Part shown: positions 13,362-14,520 of the stretch, in pieces
Numbering within the stretch: the stretch's first letter is position 1
Layout of the letters: each line of letters begins with the position of its first letter
Source: a virus
IMG/VR virus record: IMGVR_UViG_3300006802_009007
Coordinates: 1-23,180 of that record
DNA length: 23,180 bases
Direction: 5' to 3' (one strand)
Position numbers and translations under genes: made by a program
The notes under the pieces: model-generated
Told to the model about the DNA's origin: nothing
Database searches by the model: none
What the model saw: the letters and a program-made list of their open reading frames with translations, nothing else

Positions 13362-13862
13362 ATGAAGCTAAAATTTTTTAAGACACATATTGCAGTTCCT
13401 ACTCCACAATTCAAAACTGAACAATCTGCCTGTTTCGATCTTTCTTTCTCTTCTGCTGGTAAAACAGAAGTTAAAGGATATAATAGCTATAATTCTCCTA
13501 TAGTAAGACCGATTAATCATAATAGATTTTTTATTAGTCCTAAGGAAAGATTCATGGTGCCTACAGGATTAATCATTGATATTCCTGAAGGACACTCCGT
13601 TAGAATACATCCTCGATCTGGCAACTCTTTAAAGCAAGGTCTAACTCTTGTTAATTCTGAAGGAGTAATTGATTCGGATTATGTAGAAGAGTTGTTTATT
13701 CTTGTCACAAATAGTTCCGATAACGGATATTTTATTCATGAAGGCGACAGAATTGCTCAAGGAGAACTTATTAAATCTCTTTCATATGAAATAGAAGTTA
13801 CGTATGAAAAGCCCGTCCAAAAAACCGATAGAATTGGTGGTATGGGTTCAACAGGTACTTGA
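13362..13862 (+). CDS. dut: dUTP diphosphatase (dUTPase)
   Basis: A 166-residue trimeric-type dUTPase with all five motifs in order: I A-C-F-D-L-S-F (23-29), II P-R-S-G-N-S (84-89), III G-V-I-D-S-D-Y (101-107) including the base-selecting tyrosine, IV G-D-R-I-A-Q (128-133), and V R-I-G-G-M-G-S-T-G (157-165). It hydrolyses dUTP to dUMP and pyrophosphate, keeping uracil out of DNA and feeding dTMP synthesis. One oddity is V-E-E after motif III, where most homologues have x-G-E/Q. A loop around residues 30-55 is longer than in bacterial enzymes. GGAG at 13351-13354 supports the start. Its stop overlaps the TTGACA of the Hsp20 promoter. Confidence 0.92.
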   Translation: MKLKFFKTHIAVPTPQFKTEQSACFDLSFSSAGKTEVKGYNSYNSPIVRPINHNRFFISPKERFMVPTGLIIDIPEGHSVRIHPRSGNSLKQGLTLVNSEGVIDSDYVEELFILVTNSSDNGYFIHEGDRIAQGELIKSLSYEIEVTYEKPVQKTDRIGGMGSTGT

Positions 13863-13887
13863 CAAACGATCTAAAATGTATTATATA
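13859..13887 (+). promoter_or_regulatory. Sigma70-like promoter for Hsp20
   Basis: A perfect TTGACA (13859-13864), a 17-base spacer and TATATA (13882-13887). The predicted start is near 13894, exactly where the leader's first stem begins. The element overlaps the dUTPase stop codon. Confidence 0.7.
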
Positions 13888-13893
13888 TATTAT

Positions 13894-13976
13894 TGTGGAG
13901 AAAAGGTGTTGCGTACTCCACACCATCTTCGCCTAAAGGGAAGATAAAAACAACTTGCTAACATAGGAGTTAATAC
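13894..13976 (+). promoter_or_regulatory. ROSE-type RNA thermometer leader of Hsp20 (predicted)
   Basis: Three consecutive hairpins: 13894-13900 with 13916-13922 (seven pairs), 13925-13930 with 13940-13945 (six pairs), and 13952-13959 with 13965-13971. The last occludes the AGGAG ribosome site. In it A-A-C-U pairs with A-G-U-U, U13956 wobbles with G13967, G13957 is bulged, and C13958-U13959 pair with A13965-G13966. UUGCU opposite AGGA with a bulged G is the hallmark of ROSE thermometers on bacterial small heat-shock genes. At higher temperature the stem would melt and free the ribosome site. Confidence 0.72.
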
Positions 13977-14462
13977 ATGACAATTAATAGAGTACCACAT
14001 TTCGATCCTTTCGATTTCGGTTCATTTGCCAAGACTGCTGTAGGATTTGAACCGATTCTAGATAAGGTAAAGCAGATTTCAGAATATATGCCAAAGATTT
14101 CTGCTTATCCTCCATATAACATCGTCAAGGTCGCTGATAACAAGTACATCATCGAAATTGCTGTTGCCGGATTTTCCAAGCAACAAATTGAACTTGAACT
14201 ACAAGACAGTGTTTTAACTGTTAAGGGTTCTATTGAATCAAAGGATGTGAAGGAGGAAGATTATATATTCAAAGGTATCGCAGATAGAGCTTTCACACGG
14301 AAGTTTACTCTGGCCGATACAATTGAAGTCAAGAATGCCGATCTCATAAACGGTATGCTTAAAATTTGGCTAGAACGCTTTGTACCAGAAGAAAAGAAGC
14401 CAAAGAAGATTGTTATTAATGGTGAAGAATCCGAAAAGCAATTTTTAGCCGAAGATAAGTAA
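13977..14462 (+). CDS. Small heat-shock protein, Hsp20/alpha-crystallin family
   Basis: A 161-residue protein. The alpha-crystallin domain spans about residues 45-150: Y-P-P-Y-N-I-V, then I-E-I-A-V-A-G-F, L-T-V-K-G, A-F-T-R-K-F-T-L, and the signature A-D-L-I-N-G-M-L-K-I-W-L. These are the usual strands of IbpA-type bacterial Hsp20. The usual C-terminal I-x-I/V appears as I-V-I in K-K-I-V-I-N-G. Hsp20 holds unfolding proteins in an ATP-independent way. Hsp20 genes are known in T4-like cyanophages, where they may aid capsid folding. Here it is an isolated transcription unit with promoter, thermometer-like leader and terminator, so heat-controlled translation is expected. Confidence 0.93.
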   Translation: MTINRVPHFDPFDFGSFAKTAVGFEPILDKVKQISEYMPKISAYPPYNIVKVADNKYIIEIAVAGFSKQQIELELQDSVLTVKGSIESKDVKEEDYIFKGIADRAFTRKFTLADTIEVKNADLINGMLKIWLERFVPEEKKPKKIVINGEESEKQFLAEDK

Positions 14463-14472
14463 GATATATAAT

Positions 14473-14503
14473 AGGAGGGTGGAATTAATCTGCCCTCCTT
14501 TTT
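14473..14503 (+). terminator. Intrinsic terminator after Hsp20
   Basis: AGGAGGG (14473-14479) pairs with CCCTCCT (14493-14499), followed by TTTT (14500-14503). It separates the Hsp20 unit from the glycan operon that starts at 14521. Confidence 0.8.
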
Positions 14504-14520
14504 AGTTTAGGATATTTGTT

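Follow-up and report, generated by a model that had tools for sequence, protein, structure and literature searches.

A ROSE-like leader, probably an RNA thermometer, on the hsp20 genes of T4-like aquatic phages

ROSE-like RNA thermometers are recognized by a signature in which U(U/C)GCU pairs with the Shine–Dalgarno sequence (SD) around a bulged G (PMC3669281; PMC11342760). In the proven thermometer of Pseudomonas ibpA, hairpin II melts and hairpin I stays folded; expression of the P. putida gene is locked when the bulged G is deleted and the wobble U is also replaced by C, and a stabilizing role has been suggested for hairpin I (PMC3669281). Small heat-shock genes carry another type in the cyanobacterium Synechocystis, the hsp17 thermometer (PMC4477652), and a phage thermometer is known from lambda cIII, a lysis–lysogeny regulator under temperature control through accessibility of the ribosome site (mentioned in PMC8917201); it is neither ROSE nor on a heat-shock gene. 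Here, we analyzed the leader of hsp20, a small heat-shock gene, in a viral DNA stretch of 23,180 nucleotides (nt) (IMG/VR record IMGVR_UViG_3300006802_009007; hereafter the window), together with its relatives in phages and bacteria. We consider it very likely that this leader is a divergent ROSE-like thermometer of the short two-hairpin Pseudomonas ibpA type, from which translation of the phage hsp20 would be released on warming.

Read directly, the leader at 13894–13976 contains three hairpins and an SD, followed by the AUG at 13977:

13894..13922, plus strand: hairpin 1, stem UGUGGAG/CUCCACA, from the fold and from relatives with a covarying stem and a conserved loop.
13925..13945, plus strand: hairpin A (corresponding to ROSE hairpin I), AUCUUC-G-CC/GGGAAGAU, with bulged G13931 two pairs below the loop UAAA, from covariation and from occurrence compared with shuffles.
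13952..13971, plus strand: hairpin B (the putative ROSE thermosensing hairpin), UUGCU against AGGAG with bulged G13957 and the wobble U13956·G13967, from sequence, fold and relatives.
13965..13969, plus strand: SD AGGAG, sequestered in hairpin B, 7 nt 5' of the AUG, from sequence.
13977..14462, plus strand: hsp20, small heat-shock protein of 161 amino acids (Pfam PF00011, 3.4e-16).

Hairpin B is formed by the pairs A13952–U13971, A13953–U13970, C13954–G13969, U13955–A13968, U13956·G13967, C13958–G13966 and U13959–A13965. When 13894–13979 was folded as RNA, every temperature between 5 and 42°C gave all three hairpins, and at 50°C hairpin B alone was lost. A preliminary description, made from the sequence alone, had reported a three-hairpin leader on an Hsp20 gene whose last hairpin pairs UUGCU (13955–13959) with AGGA (13965–13968), with a bulged G and a U–G wobble; the sequence, the fold and the PF00011 match bear out each of these points.

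The sequence and structure features by which ROSE-like thermometers are defined in the literature are all present. U(U/C)GCU is imperfectly paired with the SD in the 3' hairpin, in the window and in its relatives, and the bulged G opposite the SD (G13957) is invariant in an alignment of 17 freshwater phage leaders (A3) and kept in relatives found with R1, a covariance model built from freshwater phage leaders alone. At least one stable upstream hairpin is provided by hairpin A and hairpin 1, both of which covary, and the element lies in the 5' untranslated region of a heat-shock gene of the usual kind, a small heat-shock gene. The four-U run pairing with the SD that marks FourU thermometers is not found in the window, the anti-SD being UUGCU. 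Compared with Pseudomonas ibpA (PMC3669281) and Rfam model ROSE_3 (RF02523), the locus shares the two hairpins, of which the 3' one has U(U/C)GCU paired to the SD, a bulged G and a U·G wobble, an AUG outside the hairpin, a small heat-shock gene downstream, and a stable 5' hairpin with an unpaired base of its own. It differs in residing in a phage genome, in a sequence too diverged for the Rfam cut-off, in a weaker hairpin B, in the third, 5' hairpin of many freshwater phages, and in a function that is predicted. The UYGCU/AGGA hairpin, the bulged G and the small heat-shock gene are likewise shared with the classical ROSE elements of Bradyrhizobium hspA and Escherichia coli ibpA; in those elements the hairpins number three to four and the sensing one is longer (PMC3669281), and the upstream hairpins of the phages are different. 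Lambda cIII is a parallel as a phage gene under temperature control through ribosome-site accessibility (PMC8917201), a control that is predicted for the present element.

The leader is not confined to one phage, and hundreds of related viruses from the sea and from fresh water have it. Hsp20 relatives were drawn from viral contigs with four queries, and their leaders were screened with a hairpin rule (YYGC and GGR separated by a loop, a bulged G flanked by pairs on either side, and an SD no more than 22 nt from the start); the rule demands the bulged G, so the constancy of this G in rule-based counts is by construction. The hairpin was present in 79/79 freshwater, 75/79 cyanophage, 16/25 HTVC008M-type and 78/79 Melnitz-type leaders, and some of the misses were near variants (CUCGCUUAAUUGGAG; AACUGUCU...AGGAGGUU). 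Counting distinct hsp20 leaders, 145 of 156 had a hairpin of type B. The other SD-bearing starts of these loci had it in 5 of 485 cases, and shuffles that preserve the SD in 0.55%; a hairpin A with a bulged G and at least four lower pairs occurred in 98% of leaders vs 1.3% of shuffles. The SD pairing, whose loss in relatives would have spoken against the preliminary description, is kept almost everywhere. Most of the hsp20-bearing T4-like aquatic phages examined carry the ROSE-type leader, and the single-phage setting of that description was too narrow. These counts also bear on the idea that the leader is mainly an mRNA-stabilizing 5' structure and the SD pairing a weak by-product, an idea favored by 5'-end hairpins a few nt from the predicted transcription start, by the stabilizing role suggested for hairpin I (PMC3669281) and by the weakness of hairpin B. 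We regard it as very unlikely, as sequence conservation is highest in hairpin B, which is coupled to the SD, and a stabilizer needs no bulged-G anti-SD in 145 of 156 leaders.

The leader was also specific to its gene. Run over 300 kb of loci from other clades, R1 gave 56 matches at E up to 1, and 56/56 lay directly 5' of hsp20; on whole phage genomes, its strong matches were hsp20 leaders. Other weak matches there, one of them 5' of gp23 (L282), had no UYGCU motif or start and look like chance. Of the 78 places to which a DNA-only motif scan for hairpins A and B led, 75 were at hsp20 and one more was at a probable hsp20 truncated by the end of its contig. RegA and coat proteins act on phage mRNAs as translational regulators, and the two hairpins could conceivably be an operator at which a protein of the phage or the host controls translation, with temperature not the signal. 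Near-invariant loops in covarying stems, seen in hairpin A and the freshwater hairpin 1, are as in protein- or ligand-binding hairpins, and several cyanophage hsp20 genes adjoin regA. An operator nevertheless appears unlikely to us: R1 singles out hsp20 in whole phage genomes, the thermosensing signature is UYGCU with a bulged G rather than a plain anti-SD, and hsp20 genes of bacteria that are unrelated hosts have the same bulged-G two-hairpin design, which in Pseudomonas has been proven to act as a thermometer (PMC3669281).

Among named phages, the leader was found in 13/13 cyanophages sampled from many Kyanoviridae genera (S-RIM8, S-SSM6b, ACG-2014d/e/f, P-RSM4, S-CAM9, S-CAM1, S-CREM1, P-TIM68, S-RIM44, P-SSM7 and S-B43), and also in S-SSM5, HTVC008M, Mosig, HTVC115P, HTVC103P and Melnitz-3, pelagiphages among them. 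An hsp20 gene is present in about 500 phage records of the collection searched, mostly cyanophages. The element was not found in the hsp20 leaders of Vibrio phage PWH3a-P1 and Salicola phage SCTP-2. A related leader stands 5' of hsp20 in the Pseudomonas jumbo phage PA5oct (L498), with a TGCC..GGG hairpin and UCUUGC-GUAAA-GGAGA, without the loop-closing pair. On the minus strand of a 106-kb viral contig (L437, 778–834), dnaK is preceded by a two-hairpin leader of ROSE-like form (R1, 29.6 bits) that follows a TATAAATATA box; from this case, ROSE-like leaders may be used on other phage chaperones too.

The compensatory changes that the preliminary description had looked to in related phage leaders were found. 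In A3, 97.6% of the cells pair, with 43 double changes vs 12.5 in shuffles; 6 of the 8 hairpin A pairs change on both sides, and covariation of this hairpin is strong also in other clades. The 54 distinct leaders from other clades were 95.0% paired, with 139 double changes vs 41 in shuffles, in an alignment fitted to the structure by the model; an all-clade MAFFT alignment (A2) misplaced hairpin A and was excluded from the counts. Within hairpin B, the pair below the bulge is U–G or C–G only (38:16), which is the U(U/C)GCU variation, the outer pair alternates between U–A, A–U and C–G, and in L024 and its relatives the loop-closing pair has gone from U–A to A–U, so that the SD itself reads UGGAG in place of AGGAG. 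Plain conservation, inherited with a recently spread gene and without selection on structure, might be invoked instead, phage hsp20 genes being related and some leaders near copies. Yet the Hsp20 proteins compared are 32–66% identical to that of the window while the stems pair through these double changes, and other gene starts in the same loci do not have the structure (5/485); because the stems covary, this explanation is already contradicted, and we give it hardly any credence.

Several results weigh against a ROSE thermometer. The Rfam ROSE match looked for after the preliminary description failed to appear: at the gathering threshold, the window matched no Rfam model of any family, and no ROSE model matched 20 further loci of its clade or a second set of 20 from other groups of phages and bacteria. 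Hairpin B is also much weaker than a bona fide ROSE_3 hairpin (−4.0 vs −11.1 kcal/mol predicted at 25°C), and the predicted opening of the SD is gradual. When 24 nt of coding sequence were added to the fold, a competing long-range pairing hid the hairpins; folds ending at the AUG or 14 nt past it restored them at most temperatures. Finally, covariation is strongest in hairpin A, and most inner pairs of hairpin B are invariant, their support being conservation only, because the SD side cannot vary.

With the threshold lifted, ROSE_3 ranked at the top of 4227 models on the window leader (14.4 bits, E about 1; gathering 43 bits), a score not significant by itself. The alignment covers positions 1–69 of the 69 in the model, AUG included, and the window has the ROSE_3 layout of two hairpins with an unpaired base in each 5' arm and then the AUG; several pairs of the first stem are non-standard, so that the layout is matched and the sequence of the model is not. 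In the isolated phage Melnitz-3, a relative, the leader of hsp20 nevertheless reached 34.1 bits (E = 0.001) on ROSE_3, below the 43-bit cut-off. Current Rfam models at their cut-offs leave undetected this marine and freshwater branch of ROSE-like leaders, bacterial and viral. A record named ‘Pseudomonas phage Y7’ (L087, 985–1051) has a full ROSE_3 match of 69.2 bits and an Hsp20 gene; the record is unverified, its sequence may be bacterial rather than phage DNA, and it was not counted as phage evidence.

For melting of the SD stem between 30 and 42°C, as anticipated in the preliminary description, the predicted probability of an unpaired SD was 0.10 at 15°C and rose gradually from 0.17 at 30°C to 0.30 at 42°C and 0.44 at 50°C. 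This is weak support because nearest-neighbor energies treat the non-canonical pairs of ROSE poorly. The predicted energy of hairpin B went from −4.0 kcal/mol at 25°C to about 0 at 50°C, and hairpin A was predicted to be folded across the range of 15–50°C. At 15°C, the SD was predicted to be mostly closed in 95% of leaders vs 69% of shuffles, and the gain on warming was larger in the leaders. The weak hairpin B is perhaps matched to cool waters.

Considering these results, we propose the following as the most likely model. A host-type RNA polymerase would produce a monocistronic hsp20 mRNA from about 13894. At the normal temperature of the host, hairpin B would hold the SD in an imperfect helix (UYGCU/AGGAG, with the bulged G and a U·G or C–G pair beside it), allowing low translation, and the stable hairpin A, with a bulged G of its own, would aid the folding of hairpin B. 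On warming, hairpin B would melt and ribosomes would bind the SD, and the phage-made small heat-shock protein might then guard the proteins of the infected cell. If the leader is a thermometer, many abundant aquatic phages have temperature sensing encoded in their own genomes, and an infection that meets warming would bring a chaperone response with it, which can be tested with cultured phages. ROSE thermometers and a phage thermometer, that of lambda cIII, were already known; the ROSE-like element in phages and its widespread setting appear to be new. A search of the open-access literature turned up no phage with a described ROSE element, in agreement with the preliminary description, which knew of none in a T4-like phage, and the papers on small heat-shock proteins (sHSPs) of cyanophages do not mention a thermometer.

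The same leader is found 5' of hsp20 in SAR11, SAR86, SAR324, other Alphaproteobacteria and Burkholderiaceae. Among the bacterial hsp20 leaders, the hairpin rule recognized 60 of 62 distinct ones and R1 found 47 of 80 loci; the ROSE-type loci, including L292, L319, L326, L334, L296 and L287, were not detected by Rfam at gathering. Phage and bacterial sequences interleave in the tree built from 68 Hsp20 proteins, with 8 label changes, at least 6 of them forced by well-supported branches. Because of this interleaving, hsp20 and its leader have probably moved together between phages and bacteria more than once; some of the bacterial contigs with the leader could be phage DNA in metagenome bins. 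If the leader is a thermometer, this would show a regulatory RNA and its gene travelling as one unit between cells and viruses. The sHSPs of cyanophages are nearer to bacterial class A than to those of their cyanobacterial hosts (PMC3827213), and a ROSE leader therefore fits them better than the cyanobacterial hsp17 type. A study of SAR11 mentions ‘a possible RNA thermometer’, with no detail in its main text (PMC6429828); the bacterial branch may therefore have been noticed already.

Hairpin 1 is optional and restricted to the freshwater T4-like clade, and it is absent where the promoter directly precedes hairpin A. Its type was seen in 20 distinct freshwater leaders including the window, with a 6–12-bp stem and a near-invariant 15-nt loop ATNANGTATTGCGTA, and with its stem it was seen in hsp20 leaders only. 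In 13 sequences, 6/6 stem pairs had double changes and 100% of cells were paired, with 24 double-change cells vs 6.5 in shuffles. A stabilizer of the 5' end or a binding site are possible roles. A wider picture, for and against which we see about equal odds, is that marine and freshwater T4-like phages, cyanophages included, sense temperature directly for their own chaperone, that hsp20 together with its ROSE leader is a mobile module which has passed several times between phages and proteobacteria, and that the freshwater 5' hairpin with its near-invariant loop was gained as a second sensor or a protein site.

Two further features delimit the predicted transcript:

13859..13887, plus strand: sigma-70-type promoter, TTGACA (13859–13864), 17 nt, TATATA (13882–13887), from sequence and recurrence in relatives.
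14473..14507, plus strand: intrinsic terminator, 11-bp stem and T run, from a terminator scan (1 found, 0.4 expected).

The predicted start, about 13894, coincides with the first nucleotide of hairpin 1, just as the preliminary description had it. Because a promoter lies upstream and an intrinsic terminator downstream, hsp20 would form its own transcription unit. A TTGACA-17-TATAWA-type arrangement was present in 37 of 46 related freshwater leaders vs 6.7% of control stretches, the predicted starts usually being a few nt 5' of the first hairpin; a general promoter scan, which requires T at the last −10 position, passed over TTGACA-17-TATATA. A T4-late TATAAATA promoter was considered first, and TTGACA-17-TATAWA fits the clade of the window better; TATAAATA boxes are present in marine groups. 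In one relative (L080, 2850–2924), a tRNA-Met gene separates hairpin A from the promoter region of hsp20; L030 (2861–2929) has a degenerate tRNA-like sequence there (RF00005, 26.4 bits, below gathering), and L006, L009, L016, L036, L037, L052 and L056 also have a tRNA or tRNA-like insert 5' of hairpin A. Given the position of the L080 and L030 inserts, the hsp20 mRNA might owe its 5' end to tRNA processing in leaders of this type.

The window as a whole represents 23 kb of a T4-like phage genome, as the preliminary description had assumed: it comes from a virus record and encodes the gp45 clamp and the gp44 clamp loader, the latter nearest to those of Melnitz and Prochlorococcus phages (56–58% identity; 58% with the T4-like phage Melnitz-3). 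Comparison of the whole window with phage records at the DNA level gave no match. The hsp20 gene is flanked by a dUTPase gene on one side and a glycosyltransferase gene on the other. Elsewhere, at 846–2168, the phage encodes a protein matching DruA (PF14236, 1.7e-21), whose family takes its name from Druantia, an anti-phage system.
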